Position numbers and translations under genes: made by a program | Part shown: positions 9,217-50,579 of the stretch, piece after piece | Layout: every line of letters begins with the position of its first letter | Numbering within the stretch: the stretch's first letter is position 1 | Notes under the pieces: generated by a model | The model's input: only the letters and a program-made list of their open reading frames with translations | The model's database searches: none | Told to the model about the DNA's origin: nothing | NCBI RefSeq assembly: GCF_020921035.1 | Contig: NC_063150.1 | Location: 8,494,001 to 8,558,000 of the forward strand | From: Rhodamnia argentea | Taxonomy: Eukaryota; Streptophyta; Magnoliopsida; Myrtales; Myrtaceae | Direction of reading: 5' to 3' | Length of the DNA stretch: 64,000 nt

Positions 9217-12200
9217 ATGGAGAAGAAGTACCGCTCTTGCGTTGACTTATTATTCTGCACGATGCTCTTGAGTGTTGCTTTCACTGAAGGAGCTCCAAAA
9301 GAGTCCCTCGTCACATATTTGCCCGGCTTCACTGGCACTTTCCCTTCACGCCACTACTCCGGGTTGGTTCTTTTTAGATTGTATTATGCAAGAAAGATTT
9401 TGGTCATCTAAATTAATAACCGTAAAAAAAAGTCTTTCTTTCTTCTGGGTTTATAATAGCAATACAAATCTTGTTTGAGGTTTTGCAGGTACGTGAACAT
9501 AGATGACAATACAGCTGGAAGAAATCTTTTCTACTACTTGGTCATGTCAGAAAGAAATTCCGCCAAAGACCCGGTTGTGTTGTGGCTGAATGGCGGGCCT
9601 GGATGCTCCAGCTTCGATGGCTTTGTCTACGAACACGGTATGCTTGATTCTCATTTCTAATCTCTTCATTTTCTCAGATGCTCTCTGAAGGTGGATTGCA
9701 TGCTTTAAATTCGGTACTTCTTAAAGCTTCATGAGCACAAGGTCTGATTAGATGGCTTACATGTAGAGTAACTGTCTATTTCGGTATATAGTATGAATAC
9801 TTTTGAATTGAATAGTTGCGAATGCACAAAGGTGACTACGTATTCTGTGCACAATTACACCCATGAGATCCTAGTCTGTTAAGACTTTTTCTCGTTGCTT
9901 TGTCCTCGTCTATGAGTTTGAATTATGCTATTACGTTGGTAATTAAGCTGACCATACCCACAGGGCCGTTCAACTTCGAAGCAGGAAAGACTAGAAGTGC
10001 CCTTCCAACATTGCATTTGAATCCATACAGCTGGTCCAAGGTCCTTTATTACTTTTGAACTGTCATTTCCTTCTTCACTTTGACGAGGAGGGAAACTTTC
10101 CTACTTATTTTGCAGCCTAAGTTTTAAATGACCATTTCTTCCCATCGACATAGTCTCAATTTCCTTATCAAGCAAATCGTTTTCATTTTCTCAGGTTTCA
10201 AACATTGTCTACTTGGATTCACCCTGTGGAGTTGGCCTGTCTTATTCGACGAACTCTCATAATTATGATACAGGAGACCTACAAACAGCCGCTGCTGCTC
10301 ATGCTTTCCTACTGAAGGTATCGTCATCTTTACTCAGACAAAAGTATTTCAGTGTGCATAATCCTAAGAAATTAGCATTCACACCAAAAGAATTCGACAT
10401 ACTTGATTGGTGTTACTGACCTGAGTTTGGTGGAGTTAATTGACCAATTATATTTTCCTGCACCTAGTGGTTTGAGCTATTCCCAGAGTTCATCAATAAC
10501 CCATTTTACATTGCTGGAGAGTCTTATGCCGGAGTATATGTTCCTACTCTCGCAGCTGAAGTAGTAAAGGGTAATTATTGCCTGCTTAGCAGATGTATCC
10601 TTTTTTTTTTAAAGTATAATCAAAGACGAAATTCAGGTTTAGTAAATGGTCCTTCTGCAGGTATAAATGAAGGCGCTAAACCAGTTATCAATTTCAAGGT
10701 AAGTAATTCAGCGATCCTGATAAGGATGGCAATATCATCTACTGAGACTTTTCCATCCTGCGCAGGGTTACATGGTGGGAAACGGGGTAACAGATGCGAA
10801 ATTTGATGGCACTGCCCTTATACCATTTGTGCATGGAATGGGGCTAATTTCAAATGGTATCTTTCATGTGGGTTCAATCTTCTTTAGCTGTACCAGATAT
10901 CTTGACAATTTCTAAGTGATCTCTTTGGGAAGCAACATTAAAAAAAGGATCTTTATTTACGTCTAATTTCTTTCATCTTCCCCCAGATTCAACCAAATTT
11001 ATTCTCTCTGTTGGCACTATGAATGTCTAATATCATTTCTCGCAGGAAGTTTATGCAAATTGTGGGGAAGTCTACTACAACAACGATAGTGAGAGTTGTT
11101 TGGCTAGCCTGCGTAAAGTGAAAAAGGTATCATGACGATCTTGACAGTTACTTCTAAATTAGGGACAAACTGGTGTGCTCTCTGCTGATAAGGGTTGGTC
11201 CTCAGGCAATCGGCAGTCTGAACATATACAACGTCCTCGAACCATGCTATCATGATCCATTGAACAAGCAAGATACAAATTGGAGTATGATCTTACCATT
11301 AAGCTTCCAGAAGTTGGGAGTAACTGAGAGACCTCTTGCTGTGAGGAAGAGGATGTTTGGTCGTGCTTGGCCTCTGTGGTTACCTGTTAGAGATGGCACT
11401 GTTCCATTATGGCCTCAACTGGCTGAAAAGTTTCACATCGCCTGTGTTGTAAGCTACTTGATGAAATGCTGATATGTCATACGCAGCAGAGACTTGTCCA
11501 TTTACACGATGCTTCTTTTTCTTGCTGGAGGGTCAGATGTGTCTAGACGATGCTATTATGACGAATGCTTTATTTTGATTACAGAACGATGAAGTTGCAA
11601 CTTCCTGGCTGAACGATGACCGAGTTAGGAAATCAATTCACGCAGCATTGGTACTTGGACTGGTTCTCTGAAATATGGAATTGACACATTCATTCTACAA
11701 CCAGGGTTTTTTCAACTATCTCCTTTGTGAATGAAAATGCAGGTAAATGTGTCAGGTCCATGGGAACTATGCACTGGACGACTCAAGTATCGTAGGAACT
11801 CTGGAAGTATGATACCTTACCACAAGAATCTGACTACCCAGAATTATCGCGCGTTAATTTTCAGGTAATATTCCAGGTCAAATAGGTTGTGGACTTAGCT
11901 AATTTGTGGGTTATCCCTTCAGATATCTCCATGTTGCATATTAAAATTATTATGATGTTAAAAGAAACAGTCATTTCTTTCTTATCTCGTGGTTCAAGAT
12001 GATTCTCTTGCTATCAGTATCCCTGGGACAGCATTATTTTCTAGGCCCACCATGTTGAGCTGCATTGGTGGCGTTATATTATTTTCTAGACCCAACATGT
12101 TGGGCTCTGTTCGTGTGTATTTGACTAGCCTTTCCTGGTCGTCTCAAACTAGTGGCATTCTGACTGTACGCGATGTGAACCACTGGCCAAGATTTTAAAT

Positions 12201-13261
12201 GATCGAGCCATTTAAAAAGTTACAGACTTGAGAGTTCATTTTCCCTTCTTCGTGATAGATTCATTTTCAGGTTGACACATTATAGAGGAATGTGATTTTT
12301 CTGTCACCAAAGTAGCAGGCAATACACGACCTTCTTTTCCTTTTTCCTGGTTTTTCTTTTTTTTCTTGAGCAGCTCCAAGAAACCTAGGATCCCCAAAAA
12401 AGCTAAAAATCCTGTTCTCTGGCAGTGGAGACCATGACATGTGTGTGCCATTTACTGGAAGCCAAGCATGGACTCAATCCCTCGGCTATAGAATTCTGGA
12501 TGAATGGAGGCCCTGGGTGTCAGCCAACCAAGTAGCCGGGTAAATTTCCAAACTTGTATGTCTCAATTCTAGTATTCATGATAGAGAAAACGCAAAAAAT
12601 GAAGGTGAGAGATTGTTGCAGATAGCATAAAATACCCCAGCAAACTCAAAACAGGTATACCTAACCCTGTAACGAACACTAAGTAAACGTTGTCAGGAGT
12701 CCCTTTACTTGCGAGCATAATGAAATCCCGCTATACTATAGCTGATTTAAACTGGACCTTGACTTGTCATAGGTACTTACAAGGATATGATCACAACCTC
12801 ACATTCCTCACCATCAAGGTATGTCGGTGAAACTACATCAACAGTCTTGTCCATCTTCAAATGTTGCAATGCAGTCGTACCAAATCTTTCGACCTGCTAA
12901 AACTGTAGGAGTTTTGTTTATTTTTGACTCCTACATCATATTGCACAGGATTGCTAGCGTCCTTAGGAATAAGAATTCCTTTCGGTTTTTTTTTTTTGTG
13001 GTTATTTCTTCTTCTCAACAAGTGAGATTTTCATTGTCCAAAACCAACGTTTGACGACTGCTATCAGCTCTGGCAGTACCTCCATTATGTATCCTCGCAT
13101 TCTTCTCCTTCCAAAGAAAATTTGTCTCAACATCCCATGCTAATACCTTCTAACTTTTTCTGAATTTGGTTGGGTAGGGAGCAGGGCACACTGTTCCAGA
13201 ATACAAGCCCAGGGAAGCTCTGGATTTCTATACTTGCTGGCTGGATGGAAACCCGATCTAG
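9217..13261 (+). CDS. Serine carboxypeptidase-like protein (SCPL20-type), intact
   Basis: Fourteen exons join in frame to 497 codons: 9217-9362, 9489-9637, 9964-10040, 10195-10317, 10468-10570, 10661-10698, 10766-10867, 11046-11126, 11206-11448, 11585-11650, 11743-11864, 12426-12539, 12773-12818 and 13178-13261. The product belongs to peptidase family S10. It has a signal peptide (about residues 1-25), the oxyanion/substrate motif [13 protein letters not shown], the nucleophile in GESYAG (Ser184), the Asp in SGDHD (417-421) and the His in GAGHTVP (His474), so all three catalytic residues are present. It is expected in the vacuole or apoplast, acting as a carboxypeptidase or, as in some SCPLs, an acyltransferase; the sequence alone does not separate these. 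The best remembered relative is Arabidopsis SCPL20. It is the only intact member of the four-locus array. Confidence 0.93.
12033..12111. repeat. Imperfect tandem repeat in SCPL locus 1 intron 11
   Basis: Two copies of an about 33-bp phrase starting ATTATTTTCTAG.CCCA.CA, spaced about 46 bp apart. Intronic, no function seen. Confidence 0.7.
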
Positions 13262-15573: not shown

Positions 15574-18500
15574 ATGACAATCTCAAAGTTCATATCCAGT
15601 ATAACACTAGCTTTGCTTCTCACTGTTTCATTTGTTAGAGCAGCTCCTAAGGAATCTCTCGTAACTTCGTTGCCAGGATTCAATGGAACTCTACCCTCTG
15701 AACATTATGCAGGGTACGTAACCGCATATATGTACTCATGACAAGCTGTTTCTCAACTTGACTCTTTGTTAGCACAAGAGTTTGAATTTGGAATTTGCAG
15801 GTATGTGACTATAGATGGAAGTCCTGGAAGAAAGAACTTGTTTTACTATTTCATTGCTTCAGAAAGGAATCCTTCAAAAGACCCTGTAGTACTGTGGCTT
15901 AATGGGGACCGGGGTGCTCCAGCTTTGATGGATTCATCTATGAACATGGTATGGAGGTTAATCCTTGGTGATTATATTTAATGTGATGAGCATATTTCAC
16001 TTGGACATGTCGTGCACTGCTTGAAAGCCTAGTGCATTTTTCCAGGACCATTTAAATTTCAAGCAGGAAAGCCAAAGGGAAGCTTGCCAGTATTGCACCT
16101 CAACCTGTTCAGCTGGTCCAAGGTCATTGAGAACTTATCTTTTTAGTCGCAACTAAGCAGTATGTTCTGTTCCAGATTAAAACTGAATAATGTGTATCAA
16201 CCATGACACATTGATTCATGGATTGAATATAATGTGATATCTATTATCAATCATCTTCTCGGCTTGACACTTAATGCCACATTCTTGCAGTCTATAATAC
16301 CAAATTCCTGGACATCTTTCAGGTTTCCAACATAATATATTTGGATTTGCCATGTGGCGTTGGTTTATCTTACTCCGACGATCTAAAGAATTATGTGACA
16401 GGAGACCTACAGACTGCTCTGATACACATGCGTTTCTTCTCAAGGTAATGAGATCCTGAACTGATCTAGAAAAGCATTGGAAAAACCAGCCAGCCAAAAT
16501 TATTTGTCACTGCTAACAGTAATTCTTTGTTTCCATCAAGTGGTTCGAACTTTATTCAGAGTTCCTTTCAAATCCATTCTACATTTCCGGAGAGTCTTAC
16601 GCCGGAGTTTATGTGCCAACTCTTGCTTCTGAAGTGGTAAAAGGTAATGCATAACTCACAATAGGCCAGGTCCCTGTGTTGGAATCACTAAGTAATAGGA
16701 GATTTACCCCCCTGCAGGAATTCATCTTGGTGAAAAGCCTCTTATCAATTTTAAGGTATGTTCTTCGTATTCCATATCATTCAGTGATCTATAAATTTGA
16801 TACGATCTCAGACAAAAAGGCTTAATGCAGGGTTACATGGTGGGAAATGGGCTCACAGACGAAAAATTTGATGGCAATGCTGTTGTGCCTTTTGCATTTG
16901 GAATAGGGCTAATCTCAAATGACATCTACGAGGTGGGTTTGATCAGGGATTTGACTCACAGATTTTACTGCACTAAAGATGCTGTAGGAAGATATTAACA
17001 TTGGCACGGAACACTTTTGAAACAGAAACACTTTCCAGGGAGTGTTACCATACATGCCCTAATTCTTCCACACAAAATCTAAGTTTAGGTCCAGCATTGA
17101 ATGTTGAAATTACTGTGTGATGCCAGAAGCTTTCTTTATGCTATTTAACAATGTGCTTAAGATGGATCATATTTGATCGTTTCAGGCTTGCCAAACCACA
17201 TGTGGTGGGAAATTTTATGATCCTCCTAGTGAAACCTGCAAGGTGAATCTTCGCAAAGTTCATCTGGTGAGAATGTCACCGTACTGTTTATACTGGAAAT
17301 TAAGAGAGGTTTCTTTAGTTCTTTGTGCATGTTATGTAAATGTTAAGGGAGAGGAAAAGTGCTCAAGTAGATATGAATTAATCAAGGTTCTAATTTTTAC
17401 AAGTACTTTGGCCACTTTCTAGGCCGTCTCAGGTGTGAACTTGTATGACATTCTTGAGCCTTGCTACCCAAATTCAGAGACCAAGTACGAAAGTGGGAAC
17501 ACAAGTATGAGTTCGGGCTTCCATCAAATGGGGGTGTATAAGAAGCCTCTCCCTAAGCGAACAAGAATGTTCTGTCAAACTTCACCTTTTTGGACTGTTA
17601 GAGATGCTGGAGTTGCAAGCTCCGAATCACAGGACGAGTTTCACATTGAATGTGTGGTGAGTTAGTCGAAGTTTTATTATGTATTATGTGATTTTGCTTT
17701 ATCAGCACTCTTTGAGGACTTTCTCTTCGGGGGGTACTTTTGCTTTACTTGGTGCTCGCAATCTTCCCTTTAATTCCAGTACTTGCCGTCTGTTTTATAT
17801 GCTGAGTTATGATGGCACAGGATGATGAAGTTGCAGTGGCATGGATGAAATGATGGAGCAGTTCGCAAAGCTATTCATGCAGCGCTGGTAGTAAAAATAA
17901 TTTCCTCATTTTGTGTCACTGCATCAAGCGTCAAATAACTGATCAATATGGAATACATTCAATAGGCAACCGGTGCAGGTTCTTGGTGGATATGTGCCAG
18001 AAGCATGATCCCTTACCACAAAAATTTGACTTCCCAGGGATACCGAGTGCTCATATACAGGTGAGATATCAGACAGAACAAACGGAGGATTTAACCACAA
18101 ATATACAGTTTCTTACTAGCTGAGTAGGACTTGGATGAAATTAAATTGATATTGTGAAGATAGACAAGTAGGAGGGTCACAAAAATGTCCAACTGTTTAT
18201 GAATCAAGGACACTGGTATTGACCTGAAACTTTTGTCGACTGAGCTAAAGCGAACACCGCATTGGCACAGAAATCTAGGATAGATGTTTCTAGGCACCAA
18301 CTTAGTGTGTTGTGGCGGCATCTTTACATTTTGCTAACTTGATATATCAATACAAGTTTGTTTATGCACTGTCTGATTTAGTATTGCTCATAAATTGGTG
18401 AACTGACAGTGGAGATCATGATAGAAGAGTACCTTTCACTGGGACTCAAGCGTGGACCAGATCAATGGGATACAAGATCATTGACGAATGGAGGCCTCGG

Positions 18501-19063
18501 ATGACTGATGATCAAGTCGCAGGGTAAGTTTGGCCTATAAAACATTTGGGTCATATCAGCAGCGGCCATGGAATTGTGTGACTGCTTAGTGCCAGAAATG
18601 TGACCTATTACCCACAGGACTTTTCGCCAAACCTTTTCCTTTCACTACCCATTACTGTTAAGCTCTCCGTTTCGCAGTGAAATATGCTATGCAGCTCAAA
18701 CATTAACTATACATACTTTCTTGAATTGGTACAGGTATCTGCAAGGATATGACAACAACTTCACATTCTTAACAATCAAGGTTATGTGCAATAAACTCTC
18801 ACTATAAGTAATCTTGTCTCATCATTTACGATTTTGTTGAAAAGCTACCTAGCAGATGAAATTCCATCAGAGGAAGGAAGTTCATAGAAGGCGGCGTGAT
18901 TTATGCCGTTGCCTTGTTCTTTCCTTCTAAAATCTTCAGACAAAAGCCTGCTGATTCTACTGCTTATCTCACTGGTGCAGGGAGCCGGGCACACGGTCCC
19001 TCAAACCAAGCCATGAGAGGCATTGGAGTTTTATAGTCACTGGTTAGATGGAAAGCCAATCTA
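15574..19063 (+). pseudogene. SCPL20-type pseudogene, locus 2
   Basis: The exon order and introns follow locus 1, starting with an ATG and a good signal peptide (MTISKFISSITLALLL). Breaks seen: a base lost in exon 2 turns the expected [13 protein letters not shown] region into WLNGDRGAPALMD; one base is lost in exon 4 near 16418; an insertion and stop lie near 17850 (WMK then TGA); about 28 bp are missing in the exon at 17966-18060; and CCATGAGAG at the last exon puts a stop before the final 23 codons. GESYAG, SGDHD and GAGHTVP codons persist. Decay seems recent, because most exons and splice sites are still readable. Transcribed non-coding use cannot be excluded. Confidence 0.88.
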
Positions 19064-19794: not shown

Positions 19795-20530
19795 AAAGCC
19801 ATGAAGCAACGTATATGTTACCACGAAAAATCTCAAATCGGTACCTTTGTGACAAATTTATCTCAAACTGTTTTTTTTTATCACAAAAAATCTCAAATCG
19901 ATACACCTATGATAAATTTACCCCTAAAGTATTTTTTTTTTACTACAAAAAATATCAAATTTGTACACTTGTGGCAAATTTACCCCAAACTATTTTTTTG
20001 ACCTCCAAAATTTCCAAAATGGTACATTTATGACAAATTTATCCTCCGTTGGTTTTCATTAAATATTGCTATCAAATTAATGAACTGGATGACAATTGGC
20101 GGTTGACAAAGATGCAAGCGTTATCCGGAATGATTGGGTGTAAAGTGTTTGTAGGTGAACCCTTTTTTTTATTTGGTATAACTACTTGAGCCGGATGAAA
20201 GTAAACTTTCACATCTAATTTTGAAGGAGAGAGATCCTATACCAATTTGGGGTTTTTACCCTCTATTTGTTATATGTGCATCAATTTGGGATTTTTAATG
20301 ATATTAATCCAATTCAATGAAAATTAATGATGGGTAAATTTGAAATAGGTGTACTAGTATGGGGTTTTTGTTAGTCAAAAAAATTAGTGTGGGGTAAACT
20401 TGTTATAGATGTACTGATTTGGGTCTATTTTGGTTATAAGTGTACTAGGTTGGAGTTTATTTTGCTCAAAAAAATAATTTGATATAAATTTGTCACAGGT
20501 TTTGTGGTATTATTATTTTTGCCAAAACTC
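19795..20530. mobile_element. Palindromic element with AT-rich inverted arms
   Basis: The left arm (19810-20060) repeats phrases such as ACAAAAAATCTCAAAT and GACAAATTTATC; the right arm (20240-20520) holds their complements (GGGGTAAACTTG, TTTGGGATTTTTAATG, ATAAATTTGTCACAGG). The phrases match the 1930-2306 MITE and the ends of the 49151 element. The exact ends and target duplication are unclear. The central gap carries a plastid 16S rRNA piece. Confidence 0.6.
20111..20157 (+). other. Plastid 16S rRNA fragment (NUPT), 47 bp
   Basis: GATGCAAGCGTTATCCGGAA and the following 27 bases match the conserved plastid 16S rRNA stretch just before the 'GGGCGTAAAGCGTCTGTAGG' segment. About three differences, all C to T, are seen in that second part. 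It is far too short to be an rRNA gene. A nuclear plastid insertion or filler DNA at a repair junction, now decaying, is the simplest reading. Confidence 0.8.
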
Positions 20531-21523: not shown

Positions 21524-24500
21524 ATGAGTCTTGAGTTTCGTATGAAGCATATCAGCCGCGCTGCTTCTCACTGTTTCATCTGTTAGAGCAGCTCCTAAGG
21601 AATCTCTCATAACTTCGTTGCCAGGCTTCCAAGGAACTCTACCCCCGGAACATTATGAAGGGTATACAACCACACATATGTTCTTGCGACAAGCGGTTTT
21701 TTTACTTGAATCTGTGTTATCTCGGGAGTTTGAAATTCCGAATTTGCGGGTATGTGACTATAGATGGAAGTCCTGGAAGAAAGAACTTGTTTTACCATTT
21801 CATTGCTTCAGAAAGGAATCCTTCAAAAGATCCTGTAGTACTGTGGCTCAATGGTGGACCCAGTTGCTCCAGCTTTGATGGCTTCGTCTACGAACATGTT
21901 ATCCTAGTTAATCCCTGGCGACCATAGTTTATGTGATGAGCATATCTCCCTCGGACATAGCGTGCTCCGCTTAACAGCCTAGCGCCTGTTTCCAGGACCA
22001 TTTGAATTCCAAGCAGGAAAGCCAAAGGTAAGCTTGCTCGTATTGCACCTCAACCAGTTCAGCTGGTCCAAGGTCGTGGAAACCTATCTTTTCAGTTGCA
22101 ACTAAGCAGTATGGTTTGTTCCAGATTAAAACTGAAGAATATGAACCAAGCATGCCACATCGACTCATGGATTGGGTTTACTGTCATTTCTAATGTAAAT
22201 CATCTTCTAGGCTTGACCCTTTGTATGATACCATATTCTTGCCCATCTCTCAGGTTTCCAACATAATATATCTGGATTCCCCATGTGGCGTCAGTTTATC
22301 ATACTCCGATAATCCAAAGAATTATGTAACGGGAGACCTACAGACTGCCTCTGGTACGCATGTGTTTCTTCTCAAGTTAATGAGGTCCTAAAATAATCAG
22401 GATAAATTTTGGGAAACCAGCAGGCCAAAATAATGCGTCAGAGCTAATACTGGTTCTTTGTTTCCATCTAGTGGTTCAAACTTTATCCAGAGTTCCTGTC
22501 AAATCCATTCCACATTTCCAGAGAGTCTTATGCAGGAGTTTATGTGCCAACTCTCACTTCGGAAGTGGTAAAAGGTGATACATACTCACCAGAGACGAGG
22601 TTCCTGTATTGGATTGAATAAGTAATATGAGATTTACTCTCCCTGTTGGAATTCATATTGGTGAAAAGCCTCTTATCAATTTCAAGGTACGTTTTCTTCA
22701 TATGCTGTAATGGTTCTAGGCAATGCAGCATTCAGGGAATGATCATGAATTTGAAACAGCTAGTTGAGATCTCAGCCTAAGTGGCATGATGAAGGGTTAC
22801 ATGGTGGGAAATGGGGTCACAGATGAAAAATTTGATGGCAATGCTGATGTGCCCTTTGCTTTTGGAATGGAGCTGATCTCAAGTGACATCTACAAGGTGG
22901 GTTGGATCAGGGAGTTCGCTCAGAGATTTTACTGCACTAAAGCTGCTGTGGCAAGATAATTGACACTGGCGTGAGTAATTGTGCCACACAAAAACTAACT
23001 ACTGACTAACTTCAGATCAAGCATTAATTGTTGAAATCCCTGTGTGATACGAAAAGCCATCTGTATGCTAATTAACGGCGAGCTTAACAAGGATCATATT
23101 TGATCGTTTCAGGCTTGCCAAACCACAGGAGGTGGGAAATTCTACAATCCTCCTAGTGAAACCTGTCAAACAAATCTTGAAAAAGTTGAACAGGTGAGAA
23201 TGTCACGTACTGTCTTATACTGGCAATTAAGAAAGCTTCCTTTAGGACTCCGTGCATCTTCTGTAAATTTTAAGGAAGAGGGAAAGGTACTCAAGTAGAT
23301 TATACATGAGTCAAGGCTCTGATTATCTCAAGTGCTTTGTCCACTTTCTAGGCTGTCTCAGGTCTAAACGGGTATGACATTCTCGAGCCATGCTACAGTA
23401 ATTCAGAGACCAAGAATGAAAGTGAAAGCACAAATATGCCTTTGGCTTCCACCAAATGGGGGTGCATAAGAAGCCTCCCCCAAAGCGAACGAGAATGTTT
23501 GGTCAAGCTTCACCTTTTTGGACCGCAAGAGACACTGGAGCTTCAAGCCCTGGACCACAGGATGAGCATCACGTTGAATGTGTGGTGAGTTAGTCAAAGT
23601 TTTACTGTATCACGTTGAATGTGTGGTGAGTTAGTCAAAGTTTTACTAAGTATGAATTGATTTTGCTTTATTAGCTCTCTTCAAGGATTTTTTTCTTTTT
23701 CTTTTAGTACTTCATTTCCAGTACTTACAATCAGTTTTACATGCTGAATTGTGATGGCACAGGATGATGAAGCTGCAGTTGCATGGTTGAACGATGAAGC
23801 AGTTCGCAAAGCTATTCATGCAGCACCAGTAATGAAAAAATTGTCCTCATTTCGCATCACTGTATCAAGTGTCAAATAACTGACCGGTCTGGATTGCCTT
23901 CAATAGGCCAGCATGGCGGGTTCTTGGTGGATAAGTGCCAGAAGAGTCATGAACAATTATTCGGGTGATACCGGAAGCATGATCCCTTACCACAAAAACT
24001 TGACTTCCCAGGGATACCGAGCGCTCATATATAGGTGAGATATCTGACAGAGCAATCCTGCATCCACTATAACATGGTAACACGCTAGATCTTCTATCAA
24101 ACCCCATTTGTTTCCAGAAAAAGGGTCCAATTTTACCATGTCATACGGTTTTTACTAGCTGAGGAGAACTTGGATGGGCTAAACTCATATTGTCAAGATA
24201 GACAAGTACGAGGGCCACAACAATGTCCAACTTCTTGGAAACAAGGACACTGGTAGTGACCTGGAACTTTTGTTGACTGAGCTAAAGAGAGCATCAGTCA
24301 AGAGCATCTGTGCAAAAATCTAGGGTGGAACTTTCTGGGCACTAACTTTGTGTGTTGTGGTGGCACCTCTACATTTTGCTAAATTGGACAGACCAACAGA
24401 AGTTTGCTTGTGCATTGACTTAATAATGTATTGACTACTGTAAATTCATCTTTCGTTGGTGTACTGGCAGTGGAGATCATGATATGGCAGTACCATTCAC

Positions 24501-25112
24501 TGGGACTCATGCATGGACCAGATCAATGGGATACAAGATCATTGATGTGTGGTGGCCTTGGATGATTAACAATCAAGTCGCAGGGTAAGTTTGACTCTTA
24601 TATGTATTCCGGTCACATCAGCAGCAGCTGCAGAATTGTGTGACCACTTAATACCAGAAAATGACCTTTTACCGAATAGGACGCGTCAATCCCACTCCTT
24701 TCATCACCAATTGCTGCTAAGCACACCAAATTGCAGTGGAACTAAGCTATGCTGTTGAACATTAACTATGCATGCTTTCTTGAATGGTTCAGGTATCTGC
24801 AAGGATATGACAACAAATTCACATTCTTAACAATCAAGTTTATGTGCAACATATGCTCCCTCTTAACTATCGTTGTTTCATCATTCATTAAGCTGACTAC
24901 CGAGTGAAAGTCTGTAAGACGAAGGAACTTCATTGAAGGCTGCAGGATGCATACCGTTGCCACATTTTTTCCTTCTAAATTCTTCAGAGAATCCCCTCCA
25001 GATACTACCATCTATCTCACTGGTGCAGGGAGCGGGGCCCATGGTCCCTCAAACCAAGCCACGAGAGGCGTTGGAGTTTTATAGTTGCTGGTCAGATGGA
25101 AAACCGATATAG
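21524..25112 (+). pseudogene. SCPL20-type pseudogene, locus 3
   Basis: Exon order as in loci 1 and 2, but heavily damaged. The ATG at 21524 is out of frame with the signal-peptide codons (about 2 bp shorter than locus 2). The exon 2 acceptor reads TTTGCGG instead of TTTGCAG. The donors after exon 2 and exon 4 read TT instead of GT. The exon 6 acceptor reads TG. A base is lost in exon 9 near 23437. GESYAG has become RESYAG, GGPGCSS is GGPSCSS, and the catalytic GAGHTVP is GAGPMVP, so His is gone. It is more decayed than locus 2, from which it differs little in intron text. Confidence 0.9.
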
Positions 25113-26801: not shown

Positions 26802-29800
26802 ATGGTCATCTTGAAACTAATATCCATCATAGCGTCTAGCTTAATTTACACTGTTTCAGTAACTAGAGCAGCTCCTAGGGAATCTCTAATTATTACCTAC
26901 CTGGCTTCACTGGCACTTTTCCCTCCGAACATCATGCAGAGTAATATGTTCTTACAACATGTTCCTGTAACAAGCTATTGTTGATCTCTTGACTCTTGGT
27001 GTTTCATTATCATGAAAATATTTTGCATTTCAACCTTCGCAGCTATGTGACAGTAGATGCAAAGCATTTAAAGAAGAATATGTGCTGTTACTTGGTTGCA
27101 TCTGAACGAAATCCTTGCAAAGACCCTGTAGTGTTATGGCTTAATGGTGGAGCTGGGTGCTCTAGCCTTGGTGGATTTATCTTCGAACACGGTATTTAAT
27201 AATAAGACATTTCTCTGTTACATGTGTTCTGCTGTCAAAGATGTATTTCTGTTTCATTTCTTTGCCTCCATTAGGATTGATGGAGTAATTAAATATTAAA
27301 CCACGCCTTCATCTAACAGCTTAAGCTTTTGAACAGTTGGCAGTGGTCCCACAAAATTTCACATGATATTAGAGCAGGAGGTCTTGAATTTAAATCTTTC
27401 CAGGCCCTATTTGCCTCCCTAATTAAGTATGTCCACGCTTAGTCTAGTCAGTACTAGGCAAAAGACTAGACTAAGCGTGAGAGGGAGTGATAGAGTAATT
27501 AACTATTAAACCACGCTTTCATCTAACAACTTAAACTTTTAGAAAAGTTGACAATGGTCTCACAAATCTCACAAGGACCATTTTATTTTAAAGCAGGAAA
27601 GTCAAAGGAAAGCTTTCCCACATTGCACCTCAATCCCTTCAGCTGGTCCAAGGTTGACAAGGAACTTTGATTATTGGAAACCAAATTTACCAGGTACGCT
27701 ACTTATTGGGATGATCTTATGAGGGAATATACATCATTGGTCGCTCATTCTCTTAAGAAAATGATTTCCTTGATAGAAGATTTTCGTACATCTTTCAGGT
27801 TTCCAACGTACTATATCTGGATTCACCATGTGGAGTAGGTTTATCTTACTCCGACGATCCAAGGAATTGTCTGATAGGAGACCTACATACCGCATCTGAT
27901 ATGCACGCTCTTCTTCTCAAGGTAAAGAGGTTCTGAACTTATATAAATGTTTCAAGAAAATCCAGCAGGAAAGATAGTGCTCTGGCCAATTTCTGGAGTT
28001 GAATGGCATAGATAGTATGGCAGCAGCTCTGGCAGCCTGTAAAACCATTCATCGATTAGTTCTCTATGTTCCAACTCTTGGCCTGCATATTTGCCTTTCT
28101 TTTCATCTAGTGGTTTGACCTTTACCCAAAGTTCCTTTCAAATCCATTTTATTTCTCCAGAGAGTCCTATGATGGAATCAACTCTTGCTTCTGAAGTGGT
28201 AAAAGGAAGAATACACTAACCTCTATAAAGGATAGTTCATGTTACTCAGTTCAGTCTGAATTTTTTATCTCTCCATGTACAGGTATTGAACATGGTGAAG
28301 AGCCTCTAATCAATTTCAAGGTATGTCCTCTTCCAGTATTCTGCTGAAAGCACTGAGCAGTATATTAGTTCAATGAATGGCTTGGAGGTTCTGTTTCAAA
28401 ATGGAAATTTGAATAGGCAGTCTGCAGGGTTACATGGTGGGGAATGGACTTAACAGATGTCAAATTGGATGGCCTTGCTGCTCGCGCGCCATTCACTTTT
28501 AGGTATAGGATCAATCTCGAGCGACTTCTTTGAGGTGGGTTACATCCGGGAGTTCAGACCATGCTGTGCAGCACGGACAGTGCTATATCAAATGATTGAG
28601 ACCATGTATGACTTTCTTTCTATATGAGCAGAAGGATTGGCATGTGATACTATGCATTTATTAGCGGAATTACTTTTTGGTTGATGCAATCCATCTTTTT
28701 CATCTTGAAGGGTACGTTGAGCATACATAAAGGGAAAATTCAACGACCCTCCCAGCGGAAGCTGTAGCAAAAATATCGACAAGTTTTTACCAGGTGCAAC
28801 TTCCAGATATTGTATTTATGCATAATTTCTGCTCCTTGTGCAATGTAGTAAGAAATCAAAGAAGAAACGAAGTATGCTCAAACAGATATGTAACTAGATT
28901 AGGGTGCTGATTTCTTGAATTTCTTGGTATTTTCCAGCTGACAGAAGGTCTAAAATGGCTACAATATTCTCGAGCCTCGCTACCCCTATCAGAAAACAGT
29001 AAACGATGAACACAAGCCAATCGCGCCTGTGAATTCCAATAAACTATAGCAACTCAGGAGCCTCAACCAATGAGGAAGAGAATATCAGGAGCAAGGAATG
29101 GTCCATGTCAGATGAGTTCTTTGCTTTCCTTCCTTTTCCTTGCAGGAAGTCAAGGCAAATCCAATATCTTATACATAAAGAAAGCAAGTGGTTGACCCAC
29201 TGGTTGCAAGTTGCAACCACAAATTTCACATTTATTCTTCTAATTTATTTGTGGTGTCCATTGAGTGACACTCTTTAAGGTGCCAAATCTCTTGAATATT
29301 ATCGCTGTACAAATTTATTAGATTAACCTATTAGCCTACGGTGATAATAAGATCAGAATCTGTATTGATGCACTTCAACTTGTGAGTAAATCTCTATAAA
29401 AGATGTGACTTGGCAAAGGAGACCTGATCATCAAAGAAAAAGTAAAAATTGTGGGATTTGCGCGATCTCAAGTCAGAAGCAAAGTTTTTTTTTTTTAATC
29501 AGATTCTCTATTTTGATTTGTTTTCATCTTTTTATATTACCACCCACATTTAAGAATAGTATTCACAAATATTAGAACTAGCTATTGTCCTGTGATGCAC
29601 TGGGAAAGCTCTTTTCTTCCGAAAATAGTTCAGGTATCTGAAAGGATTTGACAACCACCTCACATTCTTGACCATCAAGGTTATTAGCAAAGAGACTCCC
29701 ATATTAGCTCAAGAGTTATTTCACTTTAAGAAATTAGCTTCGGATTCGTGAAGAGAAATTAGACATATGAAAGTACCATGTTCTTGCATGCTCAGGCAAA

Positions 29801-30113
29801 AAACTTTGGTAGAATGTGGCATGACATACACAGTTCCAATTTTACAAAACCTGCACAGTTGACGCCTGAAAATGGAAGTGCTTCTTGACCCTCTAGTTAA
29901 TACAGTGAAATCTTCGCAACTTTCCTTTCTTTTGAAAAGACTGCTCAAAGTCATTAAGCCATCGTAAACAAGTCACCATGACTTGTATCACCTTCTGATA
30001 TTGTTTATCATTGTTCAGGGATCTGGGAATATGATTCCCTATTACAAGCCAAGGGAGGCATCAGACTTCGATAGCCGTTGGTTAGATGGAAGGTTAGATG
30101 GAAGGCCAATCTG
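26802..30113 (+). pseudogene. SCPL20-type pseudogene, locus 4
   Basis: The signal peptide (MVILKLISIIASSLIYTVSV) and exons 2-4 are well kept ([33 protein letters not shown]). Breaks: frame change in exon 1 near 26890; exon 5 lost about 8 bp so that [12 protein letters not shown] becomes RESYDG then a stop; the donor after exon 5 changed to GA; frame change in exon 7 near 28450; exons 10-12 missing between about 29080 and 29630; and the catalytic GAGHTVP is GSGNMIP in the last exon (30020-30113). That exon also holds a 12-bp tandem duplication (WLDGRLDGRPI). A TRIM fossil sits in intron 2. This is the most divergent copy, probably an older duplicate. Confidence 0.9.
27278..27573 (+). mobile_element. 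TRIM (miniature LTR element) fossil in SCPL intron 2
   Basis: Two direct repeats of 86 bp, 27278-27363 and 27488-27573, both open TGAT and close with CA. The left one is followed at once by TGATATTAGAGCAGG, the form of a tRNA-Met primer site, and the right one is preceded by a purine tract GAGAGGGAG. Total 296 bp, no coding capacity, so a terminal-repeat retrotransposon in miniature. It looks whole. The two LTRs differ at roughly one site in seven, so the insertion is old. Flanks AGGAT (27273-27277) and AGGAC (27574-27578) look like a 5-bp target duplication. Confidence 0.88.
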
Positions 30114-30565
30114 ACATACTTCTACACTTAAGTAGCATGACAAATACAACTCCCCCATGTACTTGGAAAAAACAATAATCTAATTTCAAATAAGATGTCA
30201 TTTGCATAGTGTCCTCAGAAAGCACATGCATCGAGTTTGGTCCATATTCTAACACAAGAAGATCATTCATGCCAATAATTGGATTTCCAGCACAATTGTG
30301 AGGCACAAATGTTCTGTATATAGAAAATAACAATCGGCGGAGAGTAGGATTTCTACAAAATTGCACATCCATCCAACACCAAAAACGAGAGATTGGACAT
30401 TCTCCCAGTCCCAGGCATGCTAATAAAGCCGGGCCTAACTGTTCAGAACAATTGCCAAACCTAAATGTGTATCCTTTTCTCCCATCCATTCTGCAGACAA
30501 AGAAACGGGAAAGGGGAGAAAAGAAAACGACGTGTTGAAAAGCGAATGACAGAGGTAAACCTTCT

Positions 30566-33500
30566 TTATGATTGTTTGAGACTCCTTGGATCCCTAACTG
30601 CCTTTGTTTCCTTTTGAGCAACAAACCTCGGCAGAGTCAAGAGAGTGTTTACCCGAGACACTCCTTCAAGAGCAGACCAATCTTTCTCCGATTTGGAATG
30701 CATCTCCTCATGCCTAGATGCACAATCTTTACCATCTTCAACCATCACGTCTGATCCACAGAGGTCAGCCATTGCAACAACCTTTTCTCTGTTACTGCTT
30801 GTGTCAACTTGATCCCCCAAAGTAAGTTGTTCCTTGGATTTTAAATTGGATGCTGTGGACAAATTGTCGGAGTCCAGAAAGAGGCAAACAACAGCACAGT
30901 CATCAACTTTGGAAGTGGGGTATTTGCACTTCCATGCCCGAACTGCTGACTCCACCAAGGTTCGAGCTGCAGAGGAACGTGCTGGGGCTGAAGCAACAAT
31001 GTCTACCACTTCCTTGTTTGACAACACATCCCAGACCTGTGAACAATTTAGGAATATTAATCGCTTTTATTATCTCTAAACTAAAGGAAGTGGTGATGCA
31101 TTACAGCTTGACCAAGTACCCCATCTGTTGCCAGAACAACAAATTCATCCTTCTCTGTTAGACATCGGTATGATATTTCAGGTACAGAGATTAGACCAAA
31201 ATCCTTAAGGCAGAAATCACCAAAAGCTCGTGCCATTGCAAGGCCAGGGGAGTCATTGTGTGGTAACCAGACACGAGCAACTTCTGGTTCATCTAGAAGA
31301 GAGAATACCCGTCCCCTACACTTCCGGATTCTCTCTGCTTCCGCTGTCTCAAATCAAAGGAATAAGATACTTAAGAAAAATATGGCTTAAAAGAAATTGC
31401 AAGAATTAGGTGAGAACTCAGTCACTCTTTTGGCATCCAACTCCAGAATCTAGACCCAAGAGACATAAGAAGGAAGAGACTTTCTGCATTGGTAGGCATT
31501 GTAAACTGTTCCCGAAAATTCATCACTTTCGAGTCAAAACCTCACAGAAATAATGTCATATAGTTATAAAAAGCTCAATATGATCTATACAACTGATTAA
31601 TCTAATCCTGCCATTTGCCCCTTTTAACTACATCTCTTGGTTGCTGACAAGCAAGGTGTACAAGTTTCGTTGTATGTGTGTTCTCTTTTACCAAATTTCT
31701 TGAATTAAACAATGCACTAGCCCTAAGCAATTATAGCTCATAAGCATGACTTTTCCCATTTCCTTTTTTCTTTTCAATTTTCGATTGTGAGAAAGAGAGA
31801 AAGAAAGAGAGAGAGAAACCTGGAAGATTAGGCTTGAGATCAACAGTTAACTGAACTGCAGTGAGAGAGTTATCTACATCTCGTGTACCTAGTACAGCTC
31901 TGGAGTCCCCAACATTGCCAATCACAAGGTATCGACCCTACCAAAACCGTAGACGAACTCATTATCAAGATCCCTTTATTATGAAGATAAATCAGAATGA
32001 AGGTCCTTAATTATGCTTAGGTAGTAACCTGCTTGACTAACGTCACTGCTGTTGTCCCACTGCAGAAGCAATCAATGTCAGCATGCATCCTCAGCTCTCT
32101 GTCCATGACTTTAAAAGACTTCAAAAATGATTTTTTGAGTGCCTGAAAGACCTCAGGGTGCTTTTCCGTTTCCTCCAGGTCAGTAGAGACCCTTGATTCC
32201 TCATCCAAAGATATTGAGGCAGTATCTTCAGAATTCATGCTCGTCAAGGCACTAAGGCTGATTTCTTTGAGAGCATCCGCAGTTTTTATAGAGACTTCCC
32301 AATGAGCAGTCAATTTTAGGGGAAGTGAATCTCTCACTCTCTTTGCAACCATATGACCATAGGGCCCATGGCCATCAAAGACACCACAAAAAACTGTGTC
32401 TTTCCTTGAGCAGAAATTCTGAAAATTCACAACTTTATTGTATGAGAGGAGAACTCATATTGAAAAAGCACACATATAAATTATTCAAGGAACCAAACCG
32501 CATTGCTAAAACATGACACCACCATCCAATGCTACATAGTCTCCAAACCTTTAACACGACTTTGAGAACATAAAAGGTGCAGAAGAGAGAGACCTTCTTT
32601 GTTTTTCAAGCCATGAGACAAAGAAGACACAGAACTTCATCATTCTATTTCATGATTACTTGATAAAATTAGAATTATCATCAACTCCCAGGTGAAACTA
32701 TAGAGACCTTTCACCAAGGAAAGAGAAAAAAACGTCATGATAGCATTTACAAGTGCCTACAACCATACGTCAGCAACAACTGAATAGATAAGAAGAGGTA
32801 ATTATTCAAACAATATAAGCAGATGAGCAGTCAAGAAGGGTACAACAGAATAGCAACATTTATGAACAGACCAAATGGGGAACCCAACCAAATAGCTGCA
32901 CTTGTAGTTTACAATAAATTGCACTCAGACAAAATCATCTGCCTAGGTGTTTATCCAAGAGGAACTTCATGTACTCATAATTATTCACTAGACAAAGGAG
33001 GTAAGCCAACCATTTCTTTTCGCAAAAACCGATTTCCAAAGTAACAAGTTAATATACCGAAACTTTCAACCAGTAAGGTGAGCATTACCGTATGAAACTA
33101 CAATATGCAGAGAGGAATTAGAACATAGGAAAATCGTGTTTCTTTCCTTAAGCAGAAAATAGAAGCTGATAGCATGGATCTCTACACATGGAAAGAGAGT
33201 CATTATGAAATAGGATAGATAGGGTTCGCATATTCGTGCAGGTAGACTAACTCACAGTAAAGAGAAAACGTCATCTACTTAAGAAAAGCAATGTCAAAAG
33301 TTGATCTACAACTCAATTAGGCCTTCAAAGACTTTAAAAAATGAACATGCTTTCCACTTTGATACAGCAACAGCTTTTTCTGGGTAGAGATGGTTACATT
33401 ATTGCCAAATCTCAAGAAGCTGATACCGTTCAAATAATTTAAGTACCTATTGTAAGCTAACGTGGAGATATAACAATATGTTCAATCCCTTTAAGTGCAC

Positions 33501-49149: not shown

Positions 49150-50579
49150 TGGGAAAATACCACTAAAATCCTTCAACTATACCTAATGTGAGCCATCTAT
49201 CCTGAACTTTTTTTGTGGCGCAGAAATTCCCGAATTATGCCTATTGTGACACATTTTCACCGAAATTTTCTTTGTGACACCAAAAATCCCAAACTTATAT
49301 TCATATGACACATTTACCCTCCGTTAAGGTTTCGTCAATAAACGGCGTTAAAGATATGATGTGGCGGCTGACGTGACATTGTTATATTTTTTCAGAATAA
49401 ATTAGGCTGATGTGGCGCTTGCCACATCATAAAAAAATTGAAAAGATAAAATTAAAAAAGCAAAGGAAAAAAGAAACAAACTAGAGGAGAGAGATTGTGG
49501 ATGGTCCGGGGGGCCACCCCCGACTTCGCCAGCTAGGATCGTCGACCACCGTGGACTGCGACCCCCTGCGGCCAAGCAGGGCTTGGTCCCAGACGGCGTC
49601 GAGTTCAGCGTCCTGGCTGGGCTTGCCCAAATCGAGCAGATGGCAAAGAAGCTTCGAGACTCTAGCGTAACAACTTGGCTTGCCTAGATTGTGGCCGTAG
49701 GTTAAGAATCTCTAGGTGTGGCCTGAGAAAGTTTGATGGATTTGAGAACTTCTCTCTCTCTCTTTTTTTTTTTTTTATGTGGTAGTTTATGTCTTGGAGT
49801 TCTGGGTTGATTCTTGATTTGCAATTTGTCATATTTTGTGTGTATCCGTAGCTTTGTTGACGATATCAATGGTGTCTTTTTCTCCCACTCTAGCTTCGGT
49901 GATTACCTTAGAAGACGTCTTGGAGTTGCTCAGGAACGATGGCACCATCGACGGTCCCCGTTTGAAGATCTTCAACCATCTCAAAGCCAACATAACCACC
50001 TCTCTCTTTCTGTAGATCCGACGGTGGCCGATGTTGAAGTTGTCGTCGTCGTCGTCATTGTCTCACATCGCCTGATAACAAGTCTTATCTTTATATTTAT
50101 GTGGTCTTCCTTCATTTATCAGCTTAGACTTTTGCATTGGACTTTTTAATATGGTATCAGAACGATAATGAATTTTATTGCTCTTTATATTCATGTGGTC
50201 TCCTTTCAGCTTTTAGATTGGACTTTCTGACGGTTCTCTCTCTCCTTTGGTTTGATTTTTTTCTTTTAGGGGTTTCATAGTTTTTTTTTTCCTCCGTAAT
50301 ATAAGCGCCACATCAGCCTAATTTACACTAGAAAAAAATAACAATGCCACGTCGACCGCCACGCTAGATATTTAACGTCATTTATTGACGAAACCTTAAT
50401 GAAGGATAAATGTGTCGCACGAGTACAAGTTTGATGTTTTTAGTGCTACAAAAAGAAAGTTCGTGGTAAATATGTCACAAAGGACATACTTTGAGATTTT
50501 TGGTATCACAAAAATAAAAAAAGTTCCGGATAAATGTGTCACAACAGGTATAATTCAGGATTTTTGGTGGTATTTTCCT
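49150..50579. mobile_element. MULE-like element with about 270-bp inverted repeats and captured DNA
   Basis: The ends GGGAAAATACCAC and, inverted, GGAAAATACCACC continue as inverted arms to about 49425 and 50300 (GGCTGATGTGGCGC against GCGCCACATCAGCC). The same 8 bases TAGTTTAT flank both sides (49142-49149 and 50580-50587), within a 9-bp window with one difference, as for Mutator-like elements. The unique interior 49430-50290 includes GC-rich text and a 48-codon ORF at 49869-50015. No transposase is visible. Confidence 0.82.
49869..50015 (+). pseudogene. Captured gene fragment inside the MULE-like element
   Basis: A 48-codon reading frame contains the phrase LEDVLELLRNDGTIDGPRLK followed by IFNHLKAN, with the look of a conserved helical protein start rather than transposon DNA. 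I cannot name the donor gene with confidence. Followed by a (GTC)n tract. Confidence 0.45.

Follow-up and report, generated by a model that had tools for sequence, protein, structure and literature searches.

The question raised by this locus is which acceptor an intron uses once a small retrotransposon has landed on its 3' end and copied the terminal AG. The intron belongs to the fourth SCPL locus of the analysed window (the whole stretch of 64,000 nucleotides); locus 4, counted from the first visible ATG up to where the gene model ends, covers 26802-30682 and lies, as do all its features given below, on the + strand. Exon 1 is the signal-peptide exon, exon 2 occupies 27043-27191 and is followed by the donor GT at 27192, and exon 3, which begins with GPFYFKAGKSKES, was placed at 27576-27652 by spliced protein alignment. 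Two ends are conceivable for intron 2: at a downstream AG, the solution given by the same alignment (27192-27575), or at an upstream AG, which leaves an intron of 83 bp (27192-27274).

The two AGs are separated by an element of 296 bp (27278-27573) that runs from LTR to LTR and has TG...CA ends. The 5' LTR (27278-27363; 86 bp, TG...CA) is followed by a primer-binding site, TGATATTAGAGCAG (27364-27377), which agrees at 10 of 14 positions with the TGGTATCAGAGCCA expected for initiator tRNA-Met; further on come an internal hairpin (27434-27479) with a stem of 16 bp in the window copy and of 10 bp in many relatives, the purine tract CGTGAGAGGGAG (27476-27487), adjoining the 3' LTR on its 5' side, and the 3' LTR itself (27488-27573; 86 bp). 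A preliminary description of this DNA had proposed a 296-bp TRIM with two 86-bp LTRs, a primer-like site and a purine tract, and each of these parts was found at 27278-27573. The flanks that it had taken for a 5-bp duplication are likewise present, AGGAT at 27273-27277 and AGGAC at 27574-27578. The native acceptor AG (27273-27274) is contained in the 5' copy, which is one C-to-T change away from the AGGAC of the sister genes, and the AG of the 3' copy (27574-27575) abuts exon 3. At fixed ends the two copies agree at 4/5 positions, an imperfect match with a chance of about 1.6% under equal base frequencies; the duplication is secure despite this, because of the empty sites of the sister genes and the rest of the element family. 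The coding capacity is nil: the longest listed reading frame wholly inside the element comprises 37 aa with a TTG start, and 296 bp is well short of 1 kb. With short LTRs bounded by TG...CA, a 5-bp target site duplication (TSD), a primer-binding site, a purine tract, no coding capacity and multiple copies, the element is a TRIM.

The 16-bp perfect inverted repeat at 27434-27479 is private to the window copy among the 40 copies compared. Nine bases of this hairpin (27441-27449) are missing in more than 80% of the relatives and have the look of a fold-back templated insertion. RNAalifold, run on a 49-column segment round the hairpin in 40 rows, returned no structure, and for this reason no covariation is claimed.

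The family was sought in the window's own genome (346.7 Mb in 74 contigs, 11 of them chromosome-size, 24-37 Mb). Forty of 1030 first-look candidates were scored; the 41 matching rows represent the window copy and 39 others, one of them in two pieces, so that the sample (n=40) consists of the window copy and 39 copies retrieved in 38 regions. The same whole element stands at these 39 other sites between different flanks, most of them with 5-bp duplications of their own, and its length is 286-297 bp in 36 of the 40 copies (median 291 bp). When the ends were freely searched, a 5/5 duplication was obtained for 28/40 copies against 312/1934 swapped flanks (16%), and one of at least 4/5 for 39/40 copies against 1339/1934 (69%); since such a loose search also matches many swapped flanks, the telling figure is the one restricted to TG..CA ends, where a 5/5 duplication is seen in 18/40 copies (the window copy counted) and in 3/1934 flank-swapped controls. 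Scored against the complement of the 3' end of initiator tRNA-Met plus CCA, with tRNA-Met genes taken from the same genome, the primer-binding site reaches at least 11/14 in 30/40 copies (the window copy, at 10/14, is not among them) and in 0/800 shuffles. The purine share of the 12 nt before the 3' LTR averages 82% over the 40 copies, compared with 50% over whole elements. The internal-hairpin pattern occurs in the genome 129 times in forward and 128 times in reverse orientation (reversed control, 0 and 0), the two sets largely repeating the same places because the pattern is nearly palindromic.

The K2P distance between LTRs, over the 38 other copies with a duplication of at least 4/5, ranges from 0 to 0.42 (median 0.155), the largest value coming from a copy (L073) for which the ends were probably called at the wrong place; from this spread it follows that the family has been active for long and at least once recently. 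In one copy at 35.30 Mb on C2 (L055) the LTRs do not differ at any of 85 sites, which points to recent movement. Diverged copies with about 77% identity occur on C5 at about 15.395 Mb (L078:1330-1599) and, as a partial match, in L079; they sit upstream of intact-looking SCPL paralogs. The idea that the family favours targets containing an AG was weighed and rejected, since AG is present on the element strand in 6 of the 28 perfect TSDs and equal bases would give about 7.

The place of the insertion can be read from the sister genes. At the corresponding junction SCPL loci 2 and 3 of the window read CCAG followed by GACCATTT, two SCPL copies on C5 (15.356 and 15.397 Mb) read GCAG followed by GACCATTT, and SCPL locus 1 reads ACAG followed by GGCCGTTC; the empty site is AGGACC in four sister copies and AGGGCC in one (locus 1). 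This comparison comprised 11 rows: the junction is visible in six (the five sisters and locus 4) and not in four that came out on the opposite strand, and the last row (C5 0.85 Mb) belongs to another region; the remaining SCPL copies were modelled by spliced protein alignment with an intron at the same place. By blastn (E <= 1e-5) the element has no match at the corresponding place in loci 1-3 and seven other SCPL regions. The insertion therefore fell across the boundary of intron 2 and exon 3 and duplicated the acceptor AG. The exact landing on an SCPL intron acceptor, as the preliminary description had it, is thus upheld by the sister empty sites: in the alignment of the intron with loci 1-3 that it had proposed, the intron ends in the same way in these loci, and the element is missing. 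The 5-bp duplication also carries, as had been claimed, an AG (27574-27575) directly before the exon 3 start at 27576.

The two AGs were compared with a weight matrix derived from acceptors of SCPL relatives, of which 42 were left after near-identical sites had been removed from an initial 65. On this matrix, which is limited to 42 sites of one gene family and places even the empty site (3.08) in just the 19th percentile, the upstream AG scores 3.62 (19th percentile of the 42) and retains its pyrimidine tract, and the downstream AG scores -5.04 (2nd percentile). The acceptors of loci 1-3 score 5.13 to 7.66 (locus 1 being one of the source genes of the matrix), and the median of the 42 sites is 7.18. 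Of the 3814 AGs examined in the window, 10% reach the score of the upstream AG and 69% that of the downstream AG. The stretch between the duplicates holds 25 AGs, 19 of which outscore the downstream AG; those at 27343 (8.83) and 27377 (7.06), inside the element, outscore both duplicates. Another AG, at 27596 and thus 21 nt inside exon 3, scores 8.44 and is in frame with the downstream AG; because these three outscore both duplicates, a third acceptor might have been used.

The predicted product of splicing at the upstream AG is FEHGLME-stop, reading into the LTR and ending after four codons, and that of splicing at the downstream AG is FEHGPFYFKAGKS, with the frame restored. On these scores the main product was most likely truncated. 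The duplication preserved a frame-restoring AG in a weak context, and the native site stayed upstream. The proposal that the element became the 3' end of the intron is not borne out, given that the native upstream AG survives with a score of 3.62 against -5.04; of the functional reading, the frame-restoring AG before exon 3 stands, and its likely use as an acceptor does not (2nd percentile, 25 AGs between).

The AG content of the LTRs adds little to this choice. Of four AG sites the 3', exon-proximal LTR retains one and the 5' LTR all four; among 78 other LTRs, 5 keep one or none. At one of these four positions just 12/39 (5' LTR) and 16/39 (3' LTR) relatives carry an AG, and within the family the sites often change from G to A. 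When all AGs of the last 86 nt are counted, the window copy has four, and 9/39 relatives are as low or lower; over the last 78 nt this holds for 2/39. The loss of AGs from the exon-proximal LTR is at most a hint. By comparison with relatives, 8 of the 10 differences between the LTRs are derived in the 3' LTR. A reading of this asymmetry as selection was rejected, because 8 to 2 falls short of significance and because in 7 of the 8 transitions a G/C of the 5' LTR stands opposite an A/T of the 3' LTR, a type of change often seen in the family.

The host gene retains a Pfam PF00450 match over 150 residues that start at LPGF and reach into exon 5. Neither a stop nor a frameshift interrupts the stretch between LPGF and the serine motif (exon 5), which is perhaps better preserved than would be expected after a long neutral history. 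Lesions lie elsewhere: exon 1 has a one-base frameshift between the signal-peptide frame and LPGF, spliced protein alignment shows lesions in exons 5 and 7, and GSGNMIP is read where relatives have GAGHTVP, the His of which we take to be the catalytic one. Three consecutive exons of locus 3 (23763-23828, 23907-24034 and 24471-24584) have no counterpart in locus 4 among the tblastx matches listed. Past about 28530 the locus 4 model is unreliable, being stitched from unrelated sequence that, except for the last exons, is not protein. Locus 4 contains no intact Peptidase_S10 and is a pseudogene; the spliceability of exon 3 is for this reason without coding consequence today.

The age of the insertion was estimated from the LTR pair, in which 10 of 85 aligned sites differ (8 transitions, 2 transversions), in addition to two one-base indels; K2P is 0.131 (bootstrap 95% 0.061-0.230). 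A divergence of about one site in seven, as previously stated, is obtained if the indels are counted and not for the substitutions alone (10/85). At a substitution rate of 2.5e-9 per site and year the insertion is 26 My old (12-46). With the rate of PMC3281118, 1.3e-8 per site and year (its exponent stands there, in the available part of the source, without the minus sign), the age is 5.0 My (2.4-8.8). A K2P of 0.131 thus corresponds to 5 to 26 My, and the insertion is old, as had been held.

The timing of gene loss was approached through the trio of locus 2, locus 4 and an SCPL region of C5 (L077). The locus 4 branch has dN of about 0.115, dS of about 0.33 and a ratio of about 0.35, and the ratio of locus 2 is about 0.16; these values were split by hand from pairwise values, and the reference locus 2 is itself broken. 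With an assumed constrained ratio of about 0.13, the relaxed share of dS on the locus 4 branch is about 0.08, compared with 0.066 per lineage since the insertion as derived from the LTRs. The two values are close, which fits a loss of function at or near the time of the insertion, with a large error.

The arrangement is very probably to be explained by a TRIM insertion across the SCPL acceptor, in which the AG was duplicated, the upstream AG mainly used and the gene disabled, to become the present pseudogene. In this course of events a short non-coding LTR retrotransposon of a large family, of the TRIM kind and of SMART size, was inserted by ordinary integrase action into a 5-bp staggered cut between AG and GAC, at the boundary of intron 2 and exon 3 of an SCPL (Peptidase_S10) gene. 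Gap repair copied AGGAC to each side, and it is because of this duplication that, as the sequence shows, the acceptor AG now stands twice, 301 bp apart. Before decay, the spliceosome most likely kept to the upstream AG, the pyrimidine tract of which was retained. In that case exon 3 would have started at GAT and entered the LTR, and the stop after four codons would have disabled the gene. With the downstream AG the whole element would have been removed and the protein restored, presumably as a minor event only. The insertion is old, 5 to 26 My (2 to 46 My if the bootstrap limits are taken into account), and the gene is at present a pseudogene.

It is also possible, although the balance is against it, that locus 4 had become a pseudogene before the insertion and that the acceptor landing never affected a protein. 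The one-base frameshift of exon 1 accords with this, as does the condition of the adjoining loci 2 and 3, which are broken too and suggest that the SCPL cluster decays readily; however, the rough dN/dS split makes the relaxation about as old as the insertion and not clearly older. A working acceptor at 27574-27575, with the TRIM as intron end and the gene functional for a time, is unlikely: that AG does restore the frame and the protein (FEHGPFYFKAGKS), the coding stretch from LPGF to the serine motif is unbroken, and the exon-proximal LTR keeps 1/4 competing AGs, a level reached in 5/78 other LTRs, yet the AG lies in the 2nd percentile, a better native AG with its tract stands upstream, 19/25 intervening AGs are better, the AG loss is weak (12/39 and 16/39 at one site, 9/39 relatives as low or lower in total, G-to-A common), and the gene is dead. 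Still more improbable is the bolder form of this idea, in which the duplicated AG would have been used for millions of years, with the TRIM as the last 300 bp of a functioning intron, and selection for the TSD acceptor would have cleared competing AGs from the exon-proximal LTR (3/4 gone) before the gene decayed.

Two further explanations are refuted by the comparative evidence and retain a negligible probability. Local duplication of the 86-bp repeats, which the preliminary description had itself named as a possible refutation, would dispense with transposition and agrees with the finding that no other full copy lies within the window (blastn, E <= 10); it is ruled out by the whole element at 39 other places, with other flanks and mostly its own 5-bp duplications. 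Creation of intron 2 by the element, in the manner of an introner, could appeal to a TSD that carries a splice site, a mechanism which the available part of PMC9860276 describes for some introners; but the sister genes share intron 2, at the same place and in the same phase, without the element, and the donor and 81 bp of the intron lie before the target duplication. The landing of a TRIM on an acceptor can be set against chance. With uniform landing, an assumed 100,000-150,000 acceptors and four offsets that keep the AG within the 5-bp duplication, 129 copies should yield 0.15-0.22 acceptor landings and 1030 copies 1.2-1.8; the genic bias of TRIMs would raise this expectation and purifying selection lower it. 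One such landing is no surprise, since about 1,000 candidate copies predict about one.

In the maize waxy gene, retrotransposon and Ds insertions alter splicing, as transcripts attest; the present case resembles them as a transposon at or near an intron of a plant gene, and differs in being known from sequence alone. In size, LTR length, 5-bp TSD and lack of coding capacity the element is like SMART (FRetro129), a likeness by description only: as far as the available part of PMC3281118 describes it, SMART measures 292 bp with 85-bp LTRs and a 5-bp TSD, is non-coding and lies in and near genes, and of the 50 sorghum and 83 maize genes analysed 11 have an altered structure. SMART is called grass-restricted by its authors (same part of PMC3281118); the window element comes from a plant genome with 11 chromosome-size contigs. 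Plant TRIM families, according to the accessible text of PMC4717578, have short LTRs and a TSD, are enriched in genes and recruit on average 2.7% of their copies per genome as exons; the smallest measures 233 bp, so that 296 bp is no record, and in the main text of that source, so far as it is available, Eucalyptus and Myrtaceae are not mentioned. Introners are like the window case in that a duplicated target supplies a splice site; they create new introns and, according to the authors in the available part of PMC9860276, mostly move as DNA, whereas here an LTR-type element duplicated an existing intron end. These introners (PMC9860276) apart, no plant TRIM case of exactly this kind is found among the matches listed from the literature on TEs, TSDs and duplicated splice sites and on TRIMs in Eucalyptus.

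The anatomy of the element was correctly read in the preliminary description and its function over-read; the event appears to be an ordinary insertion at an unfortunate position, and no known principle is changed by it. It is of value as a clear natural example in which a target duplication copied a splice acceptor and paralogs supply the empty sites, and it illustrates how two rival acceptors may be left behind by a small LTR element. It further puts on record a TRIM family that is abundant and very short, with copies whose LTRs range from identical to strongly diverged.

The spliced protein alignment was purpose-written and guided at first by an SCPL20-like protein; SCPL genes were recovered with 13 or 14 introns. 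Against this guide, locus 1 and the C5 copy at 15.356 Mb show in-frame gaps only; their later clean result is trivial because they were then run against their own proteins. Three further C5 models show no events against the 15.356 Mb protein, and the four C5 models contain a short exon beside a non-GT donor, a possible artefact. On C1 the models at 4.955 and 4.965 Mb have in-frame gaps only, and that at 4.978 Mb is a poor model with stops and frameshifts. Locus 1 (9319-13258) looks intact, and its product of 463 aa matches Peptidase_S10 with E 2.5e-132. Locus 2 (15670-19061) is degraded by frameshifts and a stop, and locus 3 (21618-25109) by a frameshift, with several non-GT donors in its model. 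Two very similar SCPL pairs lie in opposite orientation on C5, at 15.35-15.40 Mb and 28.36-28.40 Mb (L077-L080); these paired segments either arose by inverted segmental duplication or are duplicates made in assembly. Dispersed A/T-rich repeats are present in the window at 1933-2140, 19818-20058 and 49157-49317, the first two with a period of about 60 bp.
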